A DNA stretch of 64,000 bases from an uncultured Bacteroidota bacterium (GTDB lineage Bacteria; Bacteroidota; Bacteroidia; Bacteroidales; WCHB1-69): assembly GCA_902786595.1 (NCBI GenBank), contig CADADB010000001.1, positions 286,892-350,891 on the forward strand. Reading direction: 5' to 3'. Of this stretch, positions 446 through 63,090 are shown one piece after another (positions within the stretch are counted from its first letter, which is position 1; each line of letters starts with the position of its first letter). The notes beneath the pieces are model-generated. The model was given only the letters and a program-made list of their open reading frames with translations. It searched no databases and was not told the DNA's origin. A program made the position numbers and the translations under genes.

Positions 446-1564
446 CTACCGTTCCAGCACCACCTTTGTCACCGCGCCGTCGCCCGCTTGCACGAAATAA
501 ACGCCACCGGGACAACGGGCGAGATCGATTTGTGCGGTCTGTAGGGGCGAATAATTATTCGCCCCTACCACCACGTCTATCATCTTTCCATACACATCGT
601 AAACGCGGATCTCAGGATTTGACAATGGAGAATCCGAGGTTTGGATGTGAAGAATACCGTTTGTGGGGTTCGGCCAAACCTGAAGCTGTCCGGTCTTGCG
701 GTCGGGGATGCCGGAAGGAGTGCTGTGACCCGTAAAGAACTCGTAGATAATGTTCTTGTAGTCAACATCGTATTGGTTGACATTGTCGTACCACGTATGG
801 TTCCCGCCCACCACTTTCAGGTGCTGCAGGTCGGTGCCACAGTTATAGGTGTAGCGGATGAAACGCAAGCCGTCGTTCTTAAGGTCAGGGAGCGTATCGA
901 TGGCAGGTTCGCCGGAGCAGCCGTTGGCATTCTGCCAATAGTCCATGATGGCATCCACCCCGAGACCGAGGTTCGAGCCAAAAGCGGTGGAGCTCCCGTT
1001 GTAACCCACCACAGGATCGCTGGTGCCGTGGATGTGGAGCATCCGCACAGGTGCCACAGGGGTTAAAGAGGCCTGTTCATAGTAGATCAGACCACTTACA
1101 GGTGCGCACGCGGTGATACGGTCTCCATGCTCGATGGCCATACGATGGGTCATAAAGCCGCCCATGGAGAATCCGGTGAAGAAGACGCTGTCGGGGTCGA
1201 GCTGGTACTGAACCGTCAGCGAGTCAAGGAGGGCCATCAAGAATCCCGCGTCGTCAACATTACTGTTTGTCATCCCCACATTCCACATGTTGCCCATGCC
1301 TAAATTGCGGGCCTGTGGCACTACGATTGCCCACCCGAACTCTTCGGCTATCTGTCCGAAATTGAGTTCCTGATTATAGTTCGTAATGTTGTCTCCCAAA
1401 CCATGCAAGAAGAACAATACGGGAAGTGTGCCCTCGTGGTTGGCTGGAATGCGCACGAGATAGTCACGCTGCACGCCCTGCCAGGTGAAATGCTGGATTT
1501 GGGCGGAAATGTTTCCAAACAGGAAAAGCGCCAGTAAGAGACAAAGAGATTGGATCTTTTTCAT
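446..1564 (-). CDS. Secreted alpha/beta-hydrolase esterase with T9SS sorting domain
   Basis: About 372 residues. The start at 1564 puts a signal peptide (MKKIQSLCLLLALFLFGNIS) at the N-terminus; the frame extends further upstream but without export logic. The body resembles the PHB-depolymerase / feruloyl-esterase-like (LpqC) family: oxyanion segment FFLHGLGDN near residue 51, nucleophile motif GFSMGG with Ser near 132, Asp in HGTSDPV near 182 and His in GGNHTW near 255. From about residue 292 a type A T9SS sorting domain follows (LQVWPNPTNG...), so the enzyme is likely exported and surface-anchored or released. The peptide VGANNYSPL at about 332-340, inside the sorting domain, is encoded by a perfect 28-bp palindrome (541-568). 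The substrate, perhaps an ester of plant polysaccharide, is inferred. Confidence 0.85.
   Translation of the reverse strand: MKKIQSLCLLLALFLFGNISAQIQHFTWQGVQRDYLVRIPANHEGTLPVLFFLHGLGDNITNYNQELNFGQIAEEFGWAIVVPQARNLGMGNMWNVGMTNSNVDDAGFLMALLDSLTVQYQLDPDSVFFTGFSMGGFMTHRMAIEHGDRITACAPVSGLIYYEQASLTPVAPVRMLHIHGTSDPVVGYNGSSTAFGSNLGLGVDAIMDYWQNANGCSGEPAIDTLPDLKNDGLRFIRYTYNCGTDLQHLKVVGGNHTWYDNVNQYDVDYKNIIYEFFTGHSTPSGIPDRKTGQLQVWPNPTNGILHIQTSDSPLSNPEIRVYDVYGKMIDVVVGANNYSPLQTAQIDLARCPGGVYFVQAGDGAVTKVVLER
541..568. repeat. 28-bp perfect palindrome inside the esterase gene
   Basis: Two 14-nt arms, GTAGGGGCGAATAA and its exact reverse complement, with no spacer. It lies in the frame that reads VGANNYSPL on either strand; the other frames carry TAG or TAA. 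The same element is found at 31534-31561 (one change) and 51989-52016 (identical). Confidence 0.95.
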
Positions 1565-1634
1565 CGTCAGGGGATTATGTTGAAGATTGATTGGAGACAT
1601 GGGGTATGACGTAGAGACGTGCCATGGCGCGTCT

Positions 1635-1940
1635 CTACAGGTCCTTGTCCGTAATTTCCTCAGCATTCAGCACGAAGGCGCGCAAGCCCTGCTGTTCGGC
1701 GGAAACGTCCAGTTCGTGGATGTCGTGGAGCAACGGCTTCACCTTCTCGTCCGGCACGAAGGCCAGCACAGCGGAGTTCAACGTCGGCCAGGCGTGGGTG
1801 CCGTAGTGCGGCTCCCCGTCGTGGCTGCCGCGACCCTGCACCTCGTTCCAGAAGGTGAACCCGCGGATTTCGTTCTTGTCTAAAATTTCCATGACCTCAT
1901 CGTAGAAGGCCTGATATAAGGATATGAATACTGCTTTCAT
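1635..1940 (-). CDS. Small P-II-like protein at the end of the RND efflux operon
   Basis: 101 residues, beginning MKAVFISLYQ and containing the conserved stretch GRGSHDGEPHYGTHAWPTLNSA. It matches a small protein often found next to RND pump genes in Bacteroidales, with a beta-alpha-beta (P-II / GlnB-like ferredoxin fold) pattern and a His/Asp/Glu-rich middle. No enzymatic motif is visible; a sensory or metal-binding accessory role for the pump is inference. It lies 60 bp downstream of the pump stop codon, on the same strand, with a short direct repeat (GCTAATAGCC twice, 1975-1998) in the gap. The family match is from memory and not precise. Confidence 0.7.
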   Translation of the reverse strand: MKAVFISLYQAFYDEVMEILDKNEIRGFTFWNEVQGRGSHDGEPHYGTHAWPTLNSAVLAFVPDEKVKPLLHDIHELDVSAEQQGLRAFVLNAEEITDKDL

Positions 1941-28330: not shown

Positions 28331-28975
28331 GAAAACACAAAACAAATCAAAAGCCGCCAGAGGGTGGCTGACCATGGCGAGGTGTTCACCAATCCCCGCG
28401 AGGTGAACGCCATGCTCGACCTCGTGCGCGACGAGTCGTTCCGGCTCGACAGCCGCTTCCTCGAGCCCGCCTGCGGCGACGGCAACTTCCTCATCGAGAT
28501 TCTTCGCCGCAAACTCTCCCTTCTGCAAGATGTCAAATCCCAAACCGAATGGGAGTTCCAGAGCCTCATCACCGTAGGCTCCTGCTACGGCATCGACATC
28601 CTGCCCGACAACGCCGAGGCCTGCCGCACCAGACTGGAAGAGTACGTCCTCTCTCAACACCCAGCCTCGGAGAGGCTGCCCGTGGACAGTCCCTACCTTC
28701 TCTCGCTCCGCTATATGCTCCAGAAGAACATCGTCTGCGGTGACGCCCTCACCTACCGCACCGCCGAGAATAAGCCCATCACCTTCTGCGAATGGACACC
28801 CATCGCTGGCAGTATGCAGTTCTCCCGCCGCGACTTCCAGTTCGACTTCCTCGTCACTCAAAGCCACCAATACAGCCTCTTCGACGAGCAAGGCGAGGTA
28901 CAAAGCTTCGACGAACCTGTACACACTTATCCCCCTTTGCATTATACCCAACTTTATCGATATGACACACTATAG
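28319..28975 (+). CDS. Methylase-like protein with SAM motif but no NPPY (RM-like module)
   Basis: 218 residues. RVADHGEVFTNPREVNAMLD is the typical N-terminus of N6-adenine methylase-type proteins, and FLEPACGDGNFL near residue 47 is the SAM-binding motif I. The catalytic (D/N)PP(Y/F) motif expected after it is absent; the C-terminal half (CEWTPIAGSMQFSRRDFQFD) is a conserved alternative found in a short family that accompanies Eco57I-type methylases, as far as I recall. It may be a regulatory or target-recognition partner of the next protein, which has NPPY. The two genes overlap by 14 bp. The start codon lies inside a predicted hairpin. Confidence 0.75.
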   Translation: MPSNENTKQIKSRQRVADHGEVFTNPREVNAMLDLVRDESFRLDSRFLEPACGDGNFLIEILRRKLSLLQDVKSQTEWEFQSLITVGSCYGIDILPDNAEACRTRLEEYVLSQHPASERLPVDSPYLLSLRYMLQKNIVCGDALTYRTAENKPITFCEWTPIAGSMQFSRRDFQFDFLVTQSHQYSLFDEQGEVQSFDEPVHTYPPLHYTQLYRYDTL

Positions 28976-30491
28976 TCCAGACATCCTCAATTGCTTGGCC
29001 AACCTTTCCAGCGACGAGGTCTTCACTTCGCCCGAATTGGCCAACCGAATGCTCAACCTGCTGCCGCAGGAACTATTCCGCAGTTCCAAAACGCGGTTTC
29101 TCGATCCCTGCAGCAAGAGCGGTGTCTTCCTGCGTGAGATTGCGAAACGGCTGCTGGCGGGTCTTGAAGAGCAGATTCCCGACCTGCAACAACGCATCGA
29201 CCACATTATGACCAAGCAGGTCTTCGGCATCGCCTGCACCGACCTTACCGCCGAGATGAGCCGCCGCACGCTCTACTGCACCAAGCAGGCCAACGGCAAG
29301 TACAGCGTCAGTACGGCTTTCCATGATGTGCAGGGTAATCTGCGTTACGACCGCTGCCGCCACACGTGGAACGCGCAAGGCCGCTGCGAACGCTGTGGAG
29401 CCAGTCAAGGCGAGTATCTCCGCGCCGACTCCCGCGAGACCTACGCCTACCCGTTTATTCACAAATCAATCAAAGAAATATTCAAGAAAGATATGCAATT
29501 CGACGTAATTATTGGAAACCCGCCGTACCAATTGAATGTTGGGGTTGAGAAAGAGAACTATGCAATCGCTATTTACCATAAATTCGTACAACAAGCCAAG
29601 AAACTTAACCCAAGATTCCTTTGCATGATAATACCAGCGCGTTGGTATGCAGGAGGACGTGGACTTGATGAATTTAGAGATGAAATGTTGCACGACAATC
29701 ATTTGCGAGTTTTAGAAGATTATCCAGATGCCTCAGATGTTTTCCCTGGAGTTCAGATAAAAGCAGGGGTGTGTTATTTTTTATGGGACAAGGATAATGC
29801 TGGGGATTGTAGTGTGACAACAAATTTGAATGGCGAGAAAACAGGTCCTACTATAAGACCCCTTTTAGAGAAGGGCGCGACTACATTTATCAGATACAAT
29901 CAAATGACTTCCATTTATTACAAAATAAAAGCAAAAGCCAACCTAGAGAATAGTTTTAGTAGTCTTGTGAGTCCTCAAACGCCTTTTGGAATCATAACAA
30001 GTGAAAAAGGTCATTTAGAAAAAACTTCGTCTTCTGATGTTAAGATGTATATAAGTGGTAATGAGAAAGAATATAAAGGAGGAACTTCATTTATTGAAAG
30101 CTTTAAGATAACTAAAGGGAAAAATTTGATTGATTGTCATAAAGTTCTTATAGGAAAAGCAGGAAGTGGAAGTGATTCTTTTCCTCATTCAATTCTAAGT
30201 ACTCCTTTTTATGCTGAACCAGGCACCGTATGTAATCAAACATATTTGGTAATAGGCCCATTCAAGGATAAAAAAGAGTGTAACAATGTTATTTCATACA
30301 TTAAAACACGTTTTTTCAGATTCATGGTACTCCTGCGTAAAAATTCGCAAGATGCTATGCGCGGTGTTTACCAATTCGTCCCCCTCCAAGACTTCTCCCA
30401 CCCCTGGACTGACGAGATGCTGTACGAGAAGTACGGATTGGACAAGGACGAGATTGCCTTTATTGAGAGTATGATACGGCCGATGGAATAG
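28962..30491 (+). CDS. Eco57I-type N6-adenine DNA methyltransferase
   Basis: 509 residues from the ATG at 28962 (MTHYSPDILNCLANLSSDEV). Motif I is FLDPCSKSGVFLREI near residue 46 and the catalytic motif IV is FDVIIGNPPYQLN near 183. A Cys-rich insert (CRHTWNAQGRCERCG) may bind zinc. The part from about 29470 to 30330, including target recognition, is much more AT-rich than the flanks, while 28962-29460 and 30330-30491 have ordinary GC, so that block may have been exchanged by recombination. It would methylate adenine in DNA. With the helicase at 30865 it forms a restriction-like or methylation-guided defence module; no separate restriction enzyme is seen except the GIY-YIG-like domain of the helicase. 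Confidence 0.88.
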   Translation: MTHYSPDILNCLANLSSDEVFTSPELANRMLNLLPQELFRSSKTRFLDPCSKSGVFLREIAKRLLAGLEEQIPDLQQRIDHIMTKQVFGIACTDLTAEMSRRTLYCTKQANGKYSVSTAFHDVQGNLRYDRCRHTWNAQGRCERCGASQGEYLRADSRETYAYPFIHKSIKEIFKKDMQFDVIIGNPPYQLNVGVEKENYAIAIYHKFVQQAKKLNPRFLCMIIPARWYAGGRGLDEFRDEMLHDNHLRVLEDYPDASDVFPGVQIKAGVCYFLWDKDNAGDCSVTTNLNGEKTGPTIRPLLEKGATTFIRYNQMTSIYYKIKAKANLENSFSSLVSPQTPFGIITSEKGHLEKTSSSDVKMYISGNEKEYKGGTSFIESFKITKGKNLIDCHKVLIGKAGSGSDSFPHSILSTPFYAEPGTVCNQTYLVIGPFKDKKECNNVISYIKTRFFRFMVLLRKNSQDAMRGVYQFVPLQDFSHPWTDEMLYEKYGLDKDEIAFIESMIRPME

Positions 30492-30567
30492 TTAAATATT
30501 AAACAACAAATAATTTGCGTTCTTTGAAATAAAATATAGGGAGGCACTTTTGTTCAACAAAAAAGTG

Positions 30568-30575
30568 TATTTTTG
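30568..30575 (+). promoter_or_regulatory. -7 box of the small gene / helicase unit
   Basis: TATTTTTG then CGGCAG, 21 bp before the ATG of the 74-residue gene, implying a promoter separate from the methylase transcript. Confidence 0.6.
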
Positions 30576-30596
30576 CGGCAGTAGAAAAAATACAAC

Positions 30597-30821
30597 ATGG
30601 CGAAGGAATATCCAATAGAAGACGCTGAAATACAAAAAGCTAACGAGCCTCAAGCTCAGTATGTCGCCCCTGTCCGAAAAACGCTGCGGGTATTGACCGA
30701 TGATGAATTGGAGCGGAGCATGACACTTGAAGAACTTGATGCCCATCTGACAGAACTCATCCATCAACATTATCACAACAAATTCGTTCGTGACGCAGTA
30801 CACAGTTTGTTGTATCATTAA
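30597..30821 (+). CDS. Small conserved-looking protein of the RM-like module
   Basis: 74 residues, MAKEYPIEDAEIQKANEPQA..., with an acidic helical C-terminal half (SMTLEELDAHLTELIHQHYH). It has its own -7 box and lies 43 bp before the helicase gene. No HTH of C-protein type is apparent, so a control function cannot be claimed. It could be a subunit or antitoxin-like partner of the helicase. Coding is supported by promoter, start and spacing. Confidence 0.6.
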   Translation: MAKEYPIEDAEIQKANEPQAQYVAPVRKTLRVLTDDELERSMTLEELDAHLTELIHQHYHNKFVRDAVHSLLYH

Positions 30822-30864
30822 ATCCTTAAAATTATTTCAAAGAGCGCCATAAACTTTTGAGATT

Positions 30865-33423
30865 ATGGCGACAATTGAACAGATTTTGCCCAGCGGAAAA
30901 CGCACGGTCCCGCAAATCTACATGTACGACGACATCGCCTTTCCGGGATGGATCAAGATTGGGCAGACAGGCCGCATCGATGTGAACGAGCGCATCGACG
31001 AGCAGCACCCCATCACGGAACCGTACAAGACCTACCACCTGCTGTGGCACGACAACGCCTTCTATGCCGACGGCAGCGGTGAGAGCTTCGGCGACCACGA
31101 CCTCCACGACTACCTGCGCCGCATGGGCAAGGAACTCATCGGCGAGTGGTGTCGCTGTTCTCTACGCGAGGCACAAGCGGCTTACGTGGCCGTGCGTCAC
31201 CGCGACACGGACATCAAGACAGTGCGCGACCTCGACTACGAGATGCGCGATGAGCAGGCGCAGGCGGTGAAGCAGACCGCCGACTACTTTGCCAAGATGG
31301 ACGAAGAGGAGCCCGACCGCCCCAGCCACTACCTGTGGAACGCCAAGATGCGCTTCGGCAAGACCTTCGCCACCTACCAGCTCGCCAAACACATGGGGGC
31401 CAAACGTGTGCTGGTGCTCACCTTCAAGCCCGCCGTGGAAGACTCTTGGCGCGACGACCTGCTGCGGCACCGCGACTTTGAGGGCTGGAAATATTACAGC
31501 GAAAAATGGAGAGAAAAGGATGACACGAATGCCGTAGGGGCGAATGATTATTCGCCCCTACAATCGCAACAATCCGCTCCTTTGGTGGTGTTCGGCTCGT
31601 TCCAGGACTACCTCGGCAGGGATAAATACGGCAACATCAAAACGAAAAATGAGTGGGTACACAGCATCCACTGGGATCTGATTGTGTTGGACGAATACCA
31701 TTTCGGGGCTTGGAACGACAACGCCAAGAGTCTGCTCGACCTCGGGGATGCCGATGCCAAGCGACGGCAGGCGGAAGAGGACGCGGTGATGAGCGAGAGC
31801 GGCATCGATGTGGAGAGCGGGCGCGCCTGGGACGACAGCGATGTGCCCATCGCGGGCAAACATTACCTCTACCTCAGCGGCACCCCTTTCCGTGCCCTCG
31901 CCACGGGCGAATTCATGGAAAGCCAGATCTTCAACTGGACCTATCAGGACGAGCAGGCACGGAAAGAGTCTGTCGGCGGTCCCTATTTGGAGATGCCCAC
32001 CATGGTGATGATGACCTACCAGATGCCGCAAGACCTCGGGGCGATGATCGAGCAGTGGGACATGGACGGCTTCGATCTCAACGAGTTTTTTCGCGCAGAG
32101 GGCAAGACCTTCGTCCATGAGAAGGCCGTGCAGAAGTGGCTCGACATTATCCGTGGCAAAGCCCCCATCTTCGGCGACGGGAGTTCTCCGCTCAATGTGC
32201 GTCCGGCCTTGCCCTTCGAGGACACCCGTCTGCTCGACCTTTGCGCCCACACGATGTGGTTCCTGCCCAACGTGGCCTCGTGCGATGCGATGGAAGCACT
32301 ATTGCATCGTCCCGCCAACGGTTTCTACCAGAACTACACCATCATCAACTGTAGCGGTACGAAAGCCGGTATCGGCATGGATGCTCTCGGTCCGGTGCGC
32401 GAGGCCATGGGCGACAATCCGCTGAAGACCCGCACCATCACGCTAACCTGCGGCAAGCTGACCACGGGTGTCACCCTGCGACCGTTAGGCGGACTGCTGA
32501 TGCTGCGCAACTGCTCCAGTCCCGAGACCTACTTCCAGACGGCTTTCCGGGTGCAGAGTCCGTGGACGGCCACCGACGAGGAAGACCCCACGAAACGGAC
32601 CATTCTCAAGCCCACCTGCTATGTCTTCGATTTCGCGCCCAACCGTGCTTTGCGCGAGGTGGTGACCTACGCCAACCAGTTGGACGTGGATAGCAACCGC
32701 CGCATCACCGACAAGGTGGATGAGTTCATCAACTTCCTGCCCATTCTGCAATTCGATGGCAGTTCCATGAAGCGGGTGGATGCCACCGAAATCCTTGACT
32801 TTGTGGACAATGGCACCAGCGGCACACTATTGGCCCGCAGGTGGAATAGTGCCCAATTGGTGAATGTCGATAATACCACGCTGCAACGGGTCTTGAACAA
32901 TCCTGATGCCATGGCCGCCATCATGAAGATTGAGGGCTTCCGTGCTTTGGGCAGTGACATCATTGAAAACATCGTCAATCGTGCCGATAGGATAAAGAAG
33001 CTGAAACGCGAAGCCGGCGAAGGCGGCGACAGCAAAAAGAAAAAGGAACTGACGCAGGAAGAGAAGGAATACCGCTCTAAACGGCGCGAGGTGCAGGAAA
33101 AGCTGATGAAATTCGCCACGCGAATTCCCATCTTCATGTATCTCACCGACTATAGGGAAGAGAGTCTTGAGGATGTCATACGCAAGCTGGAACCGAGTCT
33201 GTTTGAGCGCGTTACAGGCTTAACCATCGATGATTTCGACCTGCTGTTGCGCGTTGGCGTCTTCAACCGCGCCCAAATGAACGACGCCATCCTGAAGTTC
33301 CGCCGCTACGAGGACGCTTCCTTAGCGTACACCGGTGTCAACCGCCACGCCTCCGACACCCGCATCGGGCTGATGGACAGCACGGTGCCGATAGAGGCTC
33401 TGGTGAGTCGTGAGGTGGATTGA
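30865..33423 (+). CDS. GIY-YIG/T5orf172-like nuclease fused to a DEAD/DEAH helicase
   Basis: 852 residues. The N-terminal 115 residues (QIYMYDDIAFPGWIKIGQTG, RIDVNERIDEQ) resemble the T5orf172 / Mug113 branch of the GIY-YIG fold, a possible nuclease. The SF2 helicase core follows: motif I variant MRFGKTFATY (Lys166), DEYH at 276-279, and YLYLSGTPFRALATG as motif III; a second RecA-like half extends to about 620. The C-terminus is Lys-rich and helical. It would act as translocase and nuclease of the RM-like module. At residues 224-232 the peptide VGANDYSPL is encoded by an inserted 28-bp palindrome (31534-31561), between motifs I and II. The flanking reading frame is intact, so the protein probably tolerates it. 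Confidence 0.85.
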   Translation: MATIEQILPSGKRTVPQIYMYDDIAFPGWIKIGQTGRIDVNERIDEQHPITEPYKTYHLLWHDNAFYADGSGESFGDHDLHDYLRRMGKELIGEWCRCSLREAQAAYVAVRHRDTDIKTVRDLDYEMRDEQAQAVKQTADYFAKMDEEEPDRPSHYLWNAKMRFGKTFATYQLAKHMGAKRVLVLTFKPAVEDSWRDDLLRHRDFEGWKYYSEKWREKDDTNAVGANDYSPLQSQQSAPLVVFGSFQDYLGRDKYGNIKTKNEWVHSIHWDLIVLDEYHFGAWNDNAKSLLDLGDADAKRRQAEEDAVMSESGIDVESGRAWDDSDVPIAGKHYLYLSGTPFRALATGEFMESQIFNWTYQDEQARKESVGGPYLEMPTMVMMTYQMPQDLGAMIEQWDMDGFDLNEFFRAEGKTFVHEKAVQKWLDIIRGKAPIFGDGSSPLNVRPALPFEDTRLLDLCAHTMWFLPNVASCDAMEALLHRPANGFYQNYTIINCSGTKAGIGMDALGPVREAMGDNPLKTRTITLTCGKLTTGVTLRPLGGLLMLRNCSSPETYFQTAFRVQSPWTATDEEDPTKRTILKPTCYVFDFAPNRALREVVTYANQLDVDSNRRITDKVDEFINFLPILQFDGSSMKRVDATEILDFVDNGTSGTLLARRWNSAQLVNVDNTTLQRVLNNPDAMAAIMKIEGFRALGSDIIENIVNRADRIKKLKREAGEGGDSKKKKELTQEEKEYRSKRREVQEKLMKFATRIPIFMYLTDYREESLEDVIRKLEPSLFERVTGLTIDDFDLLLRVGVFNRAQMNDAILKFRRYEDASLAYTGVNRHASDTRIGLMDSTVPIEALVSREVD
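31534..31561. repeat. 28-bp palindrome inside the helicase gene
   Basis: GTAGGGGCGAATGA paired with TTATTCGCCCCTAC; one base (G for A in the left arm) differs from the copies at 541 and 51989. It begins exactly on a codon boundary and reads VGANDYSPL. Confidence 0.95.
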
Positions 33424-51988: not shown

Positions 51989-52016
51989 GTAGGGGCGAAT
52001 AATTATTCGCCCCTAC
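51989..52016. repeat. 28-bp perfect palindrome at the 3' end of the Sir2 gene
   Basis: Identical to 541-568. On the minus strand it is read in a different frame from the other two copies and provides the last residues (RGE) and the TAA stop (52003-52005) of the Sir2 protein. Confidence 0.95.
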
Positions 52017-52845
52017 GGGCAATCAATGTTTCCAACACCTCCCCGATGTCGCCGTTGATTACAATCGACCGGTCCGCGATCTGGTCCACGGTGAACGCCT
52101 CGCCAAGATTGACGGTGGCATAGGTGGCGTTCGGGTTCTGCATCGTCCAACGGATGAAGGGGATTTTGAAGATGACGGGCGTGTTGCCGCCGCTGCCGAG
52201 GTCGAGGAACAACACCCTGCCGTCATTGTGCCGCTGGATAAATTCGGTGTATCGTTCCGATGCCGTGTGCCAGCCTTCGTCCTCCACAAAGGTCTCGTCG
52301 GCGCGCAGGTTGACCTTCATCGGGCCGCCACAGACGGGACAACGGGGAATCAATTCCGACGGGATACGCATGTCCATTTGCTCGGCAATCATCCGTTTCA
52401 CCAATTCCTCGTTGTCGTATGTTTTCTGGTGACAAGGTTTCGCGCATTGAAACAGACCATAGTCACCTTGCGTGTAGAACAGCCGCTTTTTGTCAAAACC
52501 CGCTTTTTGGAACTGGTGATCGACATTGGTGGTGATGACGAAATAGTCCTTCTCCTGCAGCAGTTTGAGCAGGTTGTCATAGACGGGCTTCGGGGCGGGC
52601 ACGTAGCGGTTGTAGTAGATGTGGCGGCTCCAGTAGGCCCAATGTTCCTCTTCGGTGGGAAACGGATAGAAGCCCGCCGAGTACATGTCGGTGAAGCCGT
52701 ATTTCTCGATGAAGTCGGCAAAGTGCCGCTGGAAGCGTTCGCCGGAATAGGTGAAGCCCGCCGAGGTCGATAGTCCCGCGCCGGCCCCGACGACGATGGC
52801 GTCGGCTTCGAGTAAGGCTTTATGTAGTTTTTCTGTTTCCGTCAT
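52003..52845 (-). CDS. Sir2-family NAD-dependent protein (SirTM type)
   Basis: 280 residues from the ATG at 52845 (MTETEKLHKALLEADAIVVG). Rossmann motif GAGAGLSTSAGFTYSG near residue 20, FVITTNVDHQFQKAGFD with the Asn-Asp-type catalytic loop near 105, and zinc-like CPVCGG near 170 are visible; the standard catalytic His region is replaced by LFYTQGDYGLFQC. The class SirTM (type M sirtuins) ADP-ribosylates lipoylated GcvH-L in Firmicutes and fungi and is paired with a macrodomain hydrolase, as here. No GcvH-L or lipoate ligase gene is adjacent. The stop codon comes from an inserted palindrome. Promoter box at 52865-52872. Confidence 0.85.
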   Translation of the reverse strand: MTETEKLHKALLEADAIVVGAGAGLSTSAGFTYSGERFQRHFADFIEKYGFTDMYSAGFYPFPTEEEHWAYWSRHIYYNRYVPAPKPVYDNLLKLLQEKDYFVITTNVDHQFQKAGFDKKRLFYTQGDYGLFQCAKPCHQKTYDNEELVKRMIAEQMDMRIPSELIPRCPVCGGPMKVNLRADETFVEDEGWHTASERYTEFIQRHNDGRVLFLDLGSGGNTPVIFKIPFIRWTMQNPNATYATVNLGEAFTVDQIADRSIVINGDIGEVLETLIARRGE

Positions 52846-52864
52846 TATTCGTTGTTTTGAAGTG

Positions 52865-52872
52865 CAAAGATA
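52865..52872 (-). promoter_or_regulatory. -7 box of the Sir2/macrodomain operon
   Basis: TATCTTTG then CAC on the minus strand, 20 bp before the ATG at 52845; supports that start. Confidence 0.65.
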
Positions 52873-52941
52873 CGATATTTGCCGAAAATGGGCGAGATTT
52901 TTTGAAGTAGGCCTTGGTATAGTTTGGGATTCCAATTTACA

Positions 52942-53751
52942 ATGAATATACTTTCCGAAAATACCCACTTATTGGGATATCCCCACGCTCAGGAAATCGG
53001 ATTTTTGCCGTCGGAAATATCAAATGGACAGATTATGGGACTTTTGAGCAAATTTTTCAGCAATGCCAGAAAGCCCGAGGGCTTTTTAGGCAAAATTATG
53101 GTCAACGGAATGAACGGTGGCGGTCACGCTGCGATGGCGAATTGGGCGTTGGAAATGGTGACGATTGGCCGCGACGACCGCATTCTCGACATCGGGTGCG
53201 GCGGTGGCGCGAATATCGCCCGGCTGCTGCAACGCACCCTGCGGGGAACCGTCACGGGTATCGATTTCTCGCCGGTATCCGTACGGAAATCAACGAAAGT
53301 GAACGCCAAAGCCATACAGGAAGGCCGCTGCAAGGTCTTGGAAGGCAATGTCGCCAACCTCCCATTCACTGAAGGTTCGTTCGACGTGGTGACCGCCTTC
53401 GAGACCATCTACTTCTGGCCCGACATTGAGCACTGCTTCAATGAGGTGAAAAGGGTGCTGAAACCCGGCGGCCAATTCGTCATTGTCAACGAATCAGACG
53501 GCAGCGGCGAAATGGATGCCAAATGGGAGAGCATGATCAAGGGCATGCACACCTACACGCCGGAAGAAGTACGGCTCCATCTGACGAATGTCGGCTTCCG
53601 CGACCTCAACATCACGGTGAACGAGGAAAAGCGGTGGCTGTGCGCGACGGCGAGGAAATGTTCAACCGTTTCGGCCTGCCGCCTTCACTGCCCCCAAACA
53701 GTGAATCCTGACCACTCTGTTGTTGTCGGTTTCCGCGATGTGGCGCAATAA
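52942..53751 (+). CDS. SAM-dependent methyltransferase (class I)
   Basis: Up to 269 residues from the ATG at 52942 (MNILSENTHLLGYPHAQEIG); a TTG at 52924 is less likely. Motif I RILDIGCGGGANIARLLQ near residue 82 and the motif II/III regions (VTGIDFSPVSV, EGNVANLPFTEGSFDVVTAF) mark a UbiE/MenG-type methyltransferase, with VLKPGGQFVIVNESDG as the post-motif. The substrate is unknown. The last 30 residues after WLCATARK overlap the 3' end of the HEAT-repeat gene on the other strand (53662-53751), so the original stop may have been lost. Divergent from the Sir2 gene. Confidence 0.88.
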   Translation: MNILSENTHLLGYPHAQEIGFLPSEISNGQIMGLLSKFFSNARKPEGFLGKIMVNGMNGGGHAAMANWALEMVTIGRDDRILDIGCGGGANIARLLQRTLRGTVTGIDFSPVSVRKSTKVNAKAIQEGRCKVLEGNVANLPFTEGSFDVVTAFETIYFWPDIEHCFNEVKRVLKPGGQFVIVNESDGSGEMDAKWESMIKGMHTYTPEEVRLHLTNVGFRDLNITVNEEKRWLCATARKCSTVSACRLHCPQTVNPDHSVVVGFRDVAQ

Positions 53752-55506: not shown

Positions 55507-55610
55507 GTCATTTTTACAATTGGTCAAGATGCTTTTTCGTTTTATCCACTCGCTTTAATGTCTTTACAATTGTGCCTATGTCGATTATTTTCCGAGTGAT
55601 TGTTTCTCCG

Positions 55611-55682
55611 TAAAAATAGCCATTTATAGGGATTCCTTTCTGACAGAAAATGTGCATTTTTGCGGCGTGAAAGATTAATGTA
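55611..55682 (+). promoter_or_regulatory. Repeated promoter cassette, copy 1 (ZIP gene 1)
   Basis: AAATAGCC, then ATTTATAGGGATTCC, then CAGAAAATGTGCATTTTTGCGG and GTGAAAGA, ending at the start codon of the ZIP gene. The -7-like box is CATTTTTG (55655-55662). Near-identical cassettes are at 59545 and 63091. Confidence 0.85.
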
Positions 55683-56441
55683 ATGAATGCCATAATCATC
55701 GGAATACTGCTGCCGCTGCTCGGCACGATGCTGGGCTCGGCTTTCGTCTTCTTCATGAAGAAGGAAATCCCCGACAGGATGCAGAAGACGCTGCTGGGGT
55801 TCGCCAGCGGGGTGATGGTGGCCGCCAGCGTGTGGTCGCTGCTGATACCGTCGATCGAGATGGCGGGCGAGCGTGTGCTGCCGGCCGCCATAGGCTTCCT
55901 GGCCGGTATCGCGTTCCTGCTGCTGATTGACGAACTGACGCCGCACCTGCACAACGGTGCCCTGAAAGCCGAGGGACCGAAATCAAAGCTCTCGCGCACG
56001 GCAATGTTGGCGCTGGCCGTCACCATCCACAACCTGCCCGAGGGCATGGCCGTGGGCGTGGTCTTCGCCGGCGAAGCGCAAGGGCTGACCCTCAGCGCCG
56101 CCCTCGCGGTGAGCATTGGCATCGCCATACAGAACATCCCCGAAGGCGCCATCATCTCCATGCCCATGCACGCGGAGGGCAACTCCCGTATGAAGTCGTT
56201 CCTCATCGGCACCCTGAGCGGCGTGGTGGAACCCATCGGTGCCGTGGCCATTTTGCTGCTGGCCGGCGTGCTCGGTGTGGCGCTTCCCTACCTACTGGCC
56301 TTCGCCGCCGGCGCCATGATGTATGTGGTCGTGGAGGAACTCATCCCCGAGACCGCCCAAGGCGCCCACACCAACCTCTCCACGATCGGCTTTGCCGTCG
56401 GCTTCGTCTTGATGATGGTGATGGATGTGGTGCTGGGGTAG
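55683..56441 (+). CDS. ZIP-family metal transporter, copy 1
   Basis: 252 residues with about eight membrane segments. The cytoplasmic-loop and TM4-5 metal motifs ALAVTIHNLPEGMAVGVVFA and IGIAIQNIPEGAIISMPMHA (His/Asn-x-x-Pro-Glu-Gly) form the binuclear metal site of the ZupT/GufA branch. It imports Zn(II) and possibly other divalent metals. A paralog at 59617 is almost identical except for a short insertion. Both are preceded by the same promoter cassette. Confidence 0.92.
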   Translation: MNAIIIGILLPLLGTMLGSAFVFFMKKEIPDRMQKTLLGFASGVMVAASVWSLLIPSIEMAGERVLPAAIGFLAGIAFLLLIDELTPHLHNGALKAEGPKSKLSRTAMLALAVTIHNLPEGMAVGVVFAGEAQGLTLSAALAVSIGIAIQNIPEGAIISMPMHAEGNSRMKSFLIGTLSGVVEPIGAVAILLLAGVLGVALPYLLAFAAGAMMYVVVEELIPETAQGAHTNLSTIGFAVGFVLMMVMDVVLG

Positions 56442-59410: not shown

Positions 59411-59544
59411 TTTTTGCAATGATTTGAGTCGATTCCCGGCGAGGGTTCTTTATCCGCGCCAGCATCTCTACAAGTTGGGGTGCCGGGCAAAAAATCATCT
59501 ATCGGAAATCCGCGCAGATCCGCGCGATCCGTGGAGATTCCCCC

Positions 59545-59616
59545 GCAAAATAGCCATTTATAGGGATTCCTATTTGACAGAAAATGTGCATTTTTGCGGT
59601 GTGAAAGAGTAATGTT
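59545..59616 (+). promoter_or_regulatory. Repeated promoter cassette, copy 2 (ZIP gene 2)
   Basis: Same ATTTATAGGGATTCC and CAGAAAATGTGCATTTTTGCGG blocks as copy 1; -7-like box CATTTTTG at 59589-59596. Confidence 0.85.
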
Positions 59617-60405
59617 ATGAATGCCATAATCATCGGAATACTGCTGCCGCTGCTCGGCACGATGCTGGGCTCGGCTTTCGTCTTCTTCATGAAGAAGGAG
59701 ATTCCCGACAGGATGCAGAAGACGCTGCTGGGGTTCGCCAGCGGGGTGATGGTGGCCGCCAGCGTGTGGTCGCTGCTGATACCGTCGATCGAGATGGTTG
59801 CTCCCCTTGAAGGGGAGCTGTCCGCAGGACTGAGGGGTGTGCTGCCGGCCGCCATAGGCTTCCTGGCCGGTATCGCGTTCCTCCTGCTGATTGACGAACT
59901 GACACCGCACCTGCACAACGGCGCCCTGAAAGCCGAGGGACCGAAATCAAAACTCTCGCGCACGGCGATGTTGGCGCTGGCCGTCACCATCCACAACCTG
60001 CCCGAGGGCATGGCCGTGGGGGTGGTCTTCGCCGGCGAAGCACAGGGGCTGACCCTCAGCGCCGCCCTTGCGGTGAGCATTGGCATCGCCATACAGAACA
60101 TCCCCGAGGGCGCCATCATCTCCATGCCCATGCACGCGGAGGGCAACTCCCGTATGAAGTCGTTCCTCATCGGCACCCTGAGCGGCGTGGTGGAACCCAT
60201 CGGGGCGGTGGCCATTCTGTTGCTGGCCGGCGTTCTCGGTGTGGCGCTTCCTTACCTGCTGGCCTTCGCCGCCGGTGCCATGATGTATGTGGTGGTGGAG
60301 GAACTCATCCCCGAGACCGCTCAAGGCGCCCACACCAACCTCTCCACGATTGGCTTTGCTATCGGTTTCGTCCTGATGATGGTGATGGACGTGATGCTGG
60401 GGTAG
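59617..60405 (+). CDS. ZIP-family metal transporter, copy 2, with an in-frame insertion
   Basis: 262 residues, almost identical to the protein at 55683. The difference is at codons 61-74, where VAPLEGELSAGLRG replaces AGER of copy 1, a net gain of 10 residues in a loop between early membrane segments. The metal motifs (HNLPEG, QNIPEG) are intact, so it is probably still functional for Zn(II) uptake. The insertion is a palindromic element (59797-59838). The duplication with its promoter and adjacent SDR debris suggests a segmental duplication. Confidence 0.92.
   Translation: MNAIIIGILLPLLGTMLGSAFVFFMKKEIPDRMQKTLLGFASGVMVAASVWSLLIPSIEMVAPLEGELSAGLRGVLPAAIGFLAGIAFLLLIDELTPHLHNGALKAEGPKSKLSRTAMLALAVTIHNLPEGMAVGVVFAGEAQGLTLSAALAVSIGIAIQNIPEGAIISMPMHAEGNSRMKSFLIGTLSGVVEPIGAVAILLLAGVLGVALPYLLAFAAGAMMYVVVEELIPETAQGAHTNLSTIGFAIGFVLMMVMDVMLG
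59797..59838 (+). repeat. Palindrome-containing insertion in ZIP gene 2
   Basis: CTCCCCTT (59801-59808), one base, AAGGGGAG (59810-59817), then CTGTCCGCAGGACTGAGGGG. The corresponding 12-bp site in copy 1 reads GCGGGCGAGCGT. It is in frame. Confidence 0.85.
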
Positions 60406-63051: not shown

Positions 63052-63090
63052 CAAAAAAACCAACATTGTCGTCCGACTGAATGTTTTTCC

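Follow-up and report, generated by a model that had tools for sequence, protein, structure and literature searches.

The 28-bp palindrome GTAGGGGCGAATGATTATTCGCCCCTAC that lies within a Bacteroidales helicase gene is best interpreted as a double-foot REP of TnpA-REP/RAYT subclass 2.4, as that subclass is set out in the available text of PMC6006769. We hold with good confidence that it is non-autonomous and is most likely moved by a RAYT/TnpA-REP similar to those of subclass 2.4. The palindrome itself belongs to a described class. The swapping of its core at fixed sites and its exact identity over phyla may be new to specialists.

The window, meaning the whole 64-kb stretch of DNA that was analyzed, contains three copies of GTAGGGGCGAATNATTATTCGCCCCTAC, beginning at 541, 31534, and 51989, and none of 100 shuffled sequences gives any copy. 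The first and last of these are perfect, and the helicase copy is imperfect, with 13 of 14 base pairs formed. A sister palindrome with another core, GTAGAGACGTGCCATGGCGCGTCTCTAC, is probably located upstream of the true start of the ORF in which it was called. As RNA, the hairpin is modest in its context (z = -2.32; 7 of 200 shuffles are equally good). The features are listed in Table 1.

Table 1. Palindromes in the window and the genes that hold or adjoin them.
Feature	Position	Strand	Description
Hydrolase-like gene	449..1666	-	alpha/beta-hydrolase-like protein with Por_Secre_tail (secretion sorting domain)
Palindrome	541..568	.	perfect copy, in frame (VGANNYSPL), inside the C-terminal Por secretion tail of the hydrolase-like gene
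Sister palindrome	1611..1638	.	GTAGAGACGTGCCATGGCGCGTCTCTAC, at residue 10 of ORF 449-1666 as called
Helicase gene	30865..33423	+	restriction-type helicase, Pfam ResIII, partial PADLOC match REase_MTase_IIG
Palindrome	31534..31561	.	28-bp double-foot palindrome, in frame (VGANDYSPL), in the helicase gene
Palindrome	51989..52016	.	perfect copy over the 3' end of the Sir2-family gene, provides its stop codon
Sir2-family gene	52003..52968	-	Sir2-family protein

The helicase ORF is 852 amino acids in length. An earlier note on this DNA had placed the palindrome on codon boundaries. It does start on one, but its 28 bp amount to nine codons and one base. The encoded VGANDYSPL falls, as that note had it, between the Walker A motif MRFGKT and the DEYH motif. 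The claim that both strands read the same peptide holds for the perfect copies; the opposite strand of the helicase copy reads VGANNHSPL, with seven of nine residues equal. Stops are present in the other frames as had been stated, though they are TAG and TGA on the plus strand and TAG and TAA on the minus strand. The three unrelated genes of that note amount to two gene interiors (541 and 31534) and one gene end (51989). This last palindrome provides the final codons and the stop of the Sir2-family gene (...LIARRGE*) at window positions 52003-52016.

Two other regions of the window were observed beside these features. An Eco57I-type methylase lies near the ResIII helicase (28740-33423), and both match parts of a single type IIG model in PADLOC, as if they formed a split restriction-modification system. 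Long direct repeats of 96-97% identity are present at 55603-56172 and 59537-60136, about 3.9 kb apart, with a third partial copy at 63085.

The palindrome is one member of a dispersed family. The genome of the window (2.84 Mb, 40 contigs) contains 28 places with three or fewer mismatches to the 28-mer. The looser pattern GTAGNGRCG...CGYCNCTAC is found at 127 places with several cores. About 50 of these were listed; nearly all are 28 bp, and the recurrent cores include TTTCATGAAA, TGCCATGGCG, CAATGCATTG, and CAAAATTTTG. The inner 26-mer is present in 36 of 197 relatives, 27 of which are among the 40 genomes of the same genus. The looser pattern is present in 128 of the 197 and in all 40 genomes of the genus.

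The exact 28-mer was also identified in at least 118 loci of GTDB contigs from many phyla, and its presence was confirmed in each of these 118. Titles were seen for 80 of them. They include Bacteroidales, Desulfacinum (Thermodesulfobacteriota), Chloroflexi, Dehalococcoidia, SAR202, Planctomycetota, Omnitrophota, Synergistaceae, Uhrbacteria, Fibrobacteria, Spirochaetia, Nitrospirae, Geomonas, Sandaracinaceae, Wallbacteria, Geitlerinema, Fluviicola, and Tannerella. Single records may be contaminants because most are MAGs; Desulfacinum infernum, Geomonas silvestris, and Geitlerinema are records without MAG in the title. In Desulfacinum loci within the range L153-L270 (e.g., L153, L159, L176, and L226), a longer conserved frame (cct...agg and beyond) surrounds the 28-mer, which is not the case in Bacteroidales. 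A literature search on the arm sequence gave, among the matches listed, no title on bacterial repeats.

Several properties place the palindrome beside the double-foot REPs of subclass 2.4. These are abundant in Cyanobacteria and Bacteroidetes and scattered over other phyla, according to the available text of PMC6006769 (Quentin et al. 2018). They carry GT[AG]G at the 5' end with its reverse complement at the 3' end and are dispersed in multiple copies per genome, as is the palindrome (PMC6006769, same text). The same text describes in-frame REP insertion within subclass 2.4 tnpA-REP genes, generally between the HuH and Y motifs. Palindromes inside RAYT-like genes after HuH were likewise found here, in relatives and other phyla and not in the genome of the window. 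Beyond what that text relates, the units described here are also in ordinary Bacteroidales genes, share an identical 28-mer across phyla, and show apparent core swapping at fixed sites. The earlier note knew of no description of this element in Bacteroidales; as a class it has been described, and the available text of PMC6006769 includes Bacteroidetes among the hosts of double-foot GTAG REPs of subclass 2.4.

The GTAG REP superfamily, in the portion of Di Nocera et al. 2013 (PMC3733652) consulted, shares the GTAG tag, dispersed copies, some intragenic copies, and a link to RAYTs. It differs in that the canonical GTAG is unpaired at the foot, whereas here GTAG pairs with CTAC. That portion assigns GTAG repeats to Proteobacteria, Cyanobacteria, Chloroflexi, and the PVC group, and mentions Bacteroidetes solely in connection with CGTC repeats. 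It identifies the intragenic repeats of R. conorii as RPE-4 and RPE-6 and treats them as CGTC repeats. The parallel with Rickettsia drawn in the earlier note is therefore one of behavior: in-frame palindromes occur in unrelated genes in both cases, but RPE-4 and RPE-6 are CGTC-tagged and described there as without a dedicated transposase, and the tag here is GTAG (PMC3733652). Proteobacterial REPs and RAYTs (Nunvar et al. 2010, PMC2817692) and the REPINs (Bertels and Rainey 2011, PMC3116915), so far as the available parts of these papers go, are also RAYT-linked short repeats with a GTAG-like foot. REPINs are described in that part of PMC3116915 as inverted REP pairs, whereas the elements here are mostly single units. 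The small dispersed repeats of cyanobacteria, attributed in citing papers to Elhai 2008, are reportedly very small, mobile, and dispersed like the palindrome.

The earlier note had proposed looking for a REP-type tyrosine transposase. A search with PF01797 identified three genes in the genome of the window, all of IS200 type by NCBIfam. These Y1 genes were rejected as the mobilizer, having no palindrome near them and IS200 as their NCBIfam family. None of 26 distinct Y1 genes from a first HMM has a palindrome within 1 kb, in loci that mostly extend only about 1.5 kb a side. The number of Y1 genes correlates with the number of palindromes in the genus (rho 0.58), and this was set aside as support because genome size is a confounder (rho 0.71). 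Of 25 genomes that carry the exact 28-mer, 12 have a PF01797 match and 13 have none; the model also missed the RAYT-like gene at locus L287.

A weak PF01797 match led to a RAYT-like gene in a Nitrospirae MAG (L302), which has GTAG hairpins inside it. With its protein as a query, RAYT-like genes were found at L287, L290, and L058, and at L189, L193, L224, and L261 among the 118 loci. Palindromes are contained within the genes at L287 and L290 (own genus), L058 (same family), and L189 (a Spirochaetia MAG), in each case shortly 3' of the HuH motif and with the frame kept. The degraded gene at L224 (a Tannerella MAG) also has its palindrome a short way past HuH. In the L302 gene, HuH is followed by two other GTAG hairpins, and an imperfect copy of the 28-mer is present at the C-terminal end. 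Palindromes beside the genes were found as well. Flanking of the transposase gene by REPs, a trait of subclass 2.4, was seen on one side only: at L287 and L290, a second palindrome starts 5 bp past the stop codon, and none is present within 400 bp upstream. A palindrome lies about 110 bp ahead of the C-terminal fragment at L261, and L193 has an exact copy about 2 kb from its gene.

The L189 protein has NHVH, WQ, and YIVNNP, and fits all of the subclass 2.4 transposase motifs NH[IFV]H, WQ, and YIxNNP. The corresponding motifs are NHFH, WQ, and YIQGNP in L302 and NHIH, WQ, and YIENNV in L287. The REP-associated tyrosine transposase model NF047646 gives 49.2-68.6 bits for L058, L287, L290, L189, and L302, and REP_Tyr_transpos is the sole NCBIfam family that these five match. 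The genes are termed RAYT-like because these scores fall under the curated cut-off of 80 bits; the in-gene insertions probably lower them. L261 scores 25.9 bits, and L224 has no match. Against the link, the two Y1 proteins above 80 bits, L297 and L301 from Desulfacinum genomes with the 28-mer, are adjoined by other GTAG hairpins and not by the 28-mer. RAYTs of this type were not found in the examined stretches of the window's own genome, which are a small part of it. The suggestion of a mobile in-gene micro-element gains support from the repeat family, presence and absence and altered cores at orthologous sites, the flank polarity described below, and the RAYT link, although the proposed transposase is seen with palindromes in relatives and other phyla and not in the examined part of the window's genome.

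In the mechanism that we favor, the unit carries GTAG at one end and the complementary CTAC at the other, around a core able to fold back on itself. A RAYT/TnpA-REP, which is a HuH single-strand transposase, would recognize the single-stranded hairpin with its GTAG and cut at a nearby CT. Survival of copies that land in genes would require both an open frame and a tolerant place (a loop, linker, or gene end), and no benefit of the peptide need be assumed.

Copies avoid gene interiors. Within 236 kb of chosen stretches, 9 of 38 palindromes are inside a predicted gene, against a coding fraction of 0.87; this is no random sample, because the stretches (the 20-kb L127-L132 and further loci) were picked for palindromes and the genes are simple ORF calls. 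Outside the GTDB-scan loci, 45 of 133 distinct copies are inside an ORF of at least 200 amino acids, a count that takes in orthologous sites from more than one species as well as some short ORFs of doubtful gene status. One phase holds 41 of these, and in 16 of the 45 no other phase is open. Where two phases are open, which gives the informative count, 25 of 29 copies use the phase starting V-E-T or V-G-A and four use the other. The phase bias arises partly by construction, since the phase beginning with TAG is barred from any open ORF. Three sigma-70-family proteins with long C-terminal parts are among the hosts, as are the Por secretion tail protein and the helicase. The palindrome can sit within genes without breaking them. 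An open phase together with selection accounts for this passage through genes, so a useful peptide is not needed.

The scarcity of copies in gene interiors (9 of 38) would also suit fixed regulatory hairpins, that is, terminators or mRNA stabilizers kept by selection, homogenized by gene conversion, and not mobile today. In a hand-picked set of 12 genomes, every member has a palindrome at one intergenic site, and RNA roles are favored for many REPs in the available text of PMC3733652. An Rfam scan of three loci (L127, L132, and L004) gave zero matches. The absence of an Rfam match there, the in-gene copies, the presence and absence at orthologous sites, and the palindromes in RAYT-like genes all argue against this explanation, which we consider unlikely.

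Among the sites listed, there is one clean empty site (genome G039). It and the occupied forms differ by 36 bp, with a repeated GACG/CGTC. A sister palindrome within a Sir2 relative accounts for a 33-bp difference from the empty form (L104 versus L105), with a repeated CGTTC. Both differences are multiples of three. These two sites can be read as short duplications, and they would fit a MITE-like element moved by a target-duplicating DDE transposase; however, no rule of target-site duplication emerges over 105 copies distinct by their flanks, and we give this explanation a slightly lower probability still. The first site's geometry, 2 bases on either side and a 4-bp repeat, is observed three times in the 105 copies versus 1.18 expected. 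The best of 252 geometries tried (a 3-bp repeat, six versus 1.4 expected) has a z of 3.3.

The flanks of the same 105 copies show a polarity. Read towards GTAG from each end, TT on one side is paired with CT or CC on the other. The observed and expected counts are 30 and 13.3 for CT/TT, 17 and 9.7 for CC/TT, and 1 and 11.0 for TT/TT. This set includes orthologous sites, and the test was repeated with one copy per flank cluster (n = 71), giving 17 versus 7.1, 11 versus 6.5, and 1 versus 6.2, respectively. The CT/TT polarity was not seen in the 118 GTDB-scan loci, where CT/CT is the commonest pair (13 of 159 copies). The available text of PMC8266576 reports a CT on either the 5' or the 3' side of the REP as the cutting site of E. 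coli TnpA-REP. Insertion into older hairpins was rejected as a target rule. Complementary flank runs of at least six bases are inconsistent between locus sets, with 17 of 156 versus 6.1 expected in the GTDB-scan loci and 4 of 139 versus 8.6 in the other loci.

Presence and absence are also seen among orthologs of the genes in the window. The helicase set has 19 loci, with two further matches of about 53% left out, and 18 of these align over the region; the remaining one (L061) is a fragment that ends before the palindrome site. The palindrome is present at one place in 4 of the 18 (window, G026, G013, and G016), or in 4 of 13 when limited to at least 90% identity, and the loop at this site is otherwise variable. 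The earlier note had reasoned that the peptide would be ancestral if all orthologs carried it at the same place, and the comparison came out against that reading. That the peptide is a functional ancestral part of its host proteins is thus extremely improbable: four helicases share the insertion place, but 14 of the 18 relatives lack the peptide in a variable loop, and the same or sister peptides are present in sigma factors and the Por secretion tail.

Three further observations concern the helicase relatives. L053, L056, and L057 have a repeat-like ctctaaact stretch in the same loop, at the place of the palindrome. In L048, the G026 helicase relative, a stop codon lies a little ahead of the palindrome. 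The helicase tail (window 33262-33423, residues ~800-852) has many matches among short ORFs of the genus, with several in each genome and identities of 38-96%. These tail matches are a dispersed repeat and are unexplained.

The Sir2-end site was compared in nine aligned sequences. The 28-mer is intact in three (window, L102, and L104) and has two changes in L103. No palindrome is present at that spot in L098, L105, L106, and L107. L099 contains a decayed sister palindrome of the CAATGCATTG kind, which adds one core swap at this site.

Clustering by flanks sorted 129 copies into 63 clusters, 32 of which contain two or more species. The core differs at four or more of 10 places in 8 of the 32. 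These represent about five independent places, because three of the eight clusters are one intergenic site (S6) and two share one intergenic region (S3 and S5). In 131 between-species pairs with a mean flank identity of 0.91, the core differs at 0-2 places in 107 and at 4-10 places in 24, and none differs at three. The pairs are not independent, and the data come from two 20-kb regions plus a few loci. Hand-listed sites, compared over 80-base flanks with gapped columns left out of flank identity, give the same picture. Among them, an intergenic site shows five or more cores across the 12 genomes listed, each still palindromic with no more than 2 of 14 pairs open, although the flanks of this site are weaker in G003 (0.76 and 0.90). 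Sites S7 and S8 were added by hand and have weaker flanks in some species. At a site just past the RAYT-like gene, the palindrome is reversed between G008 and G022 with near-identical flanks, although two point changes would look the same.

From these alignments, the core appears to be swapped at orthologous sites while the flanks stay similar. One tentative reading, to which we give perhaps a one-in-three standing, is that the palindromes are exchangeable cassettes at fixed addresses. The resident core would be replaced or flipped, with the GTAG feet and the neighboring sequence kept, by a RAYT-driven exchange of hairpin for hairpin and not by new insertion. The address would be old, and its tenants would circulate among phyla. 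RAYT exchange has a fair rival in gene conversion from other copies, and repeated insertion into one spot keeps a small probability where the flanks are gapped.

With the palindrome read as a double-foot REP, an in-gene palindrome of a Bacteroidales helicase is tied to a class of RAYT-linked REPs already described. The copies here show how such units can supply a protein with extra residues or with its stop codon. The identical 28-mer in distant phyla calls for an explanation, whether by frequent horizontal spread or by tight recognition on the part of a single kind of enzyme. The fixed sites with different cores in related species form a natural data set for distinguishing REP replacement from new insertion.
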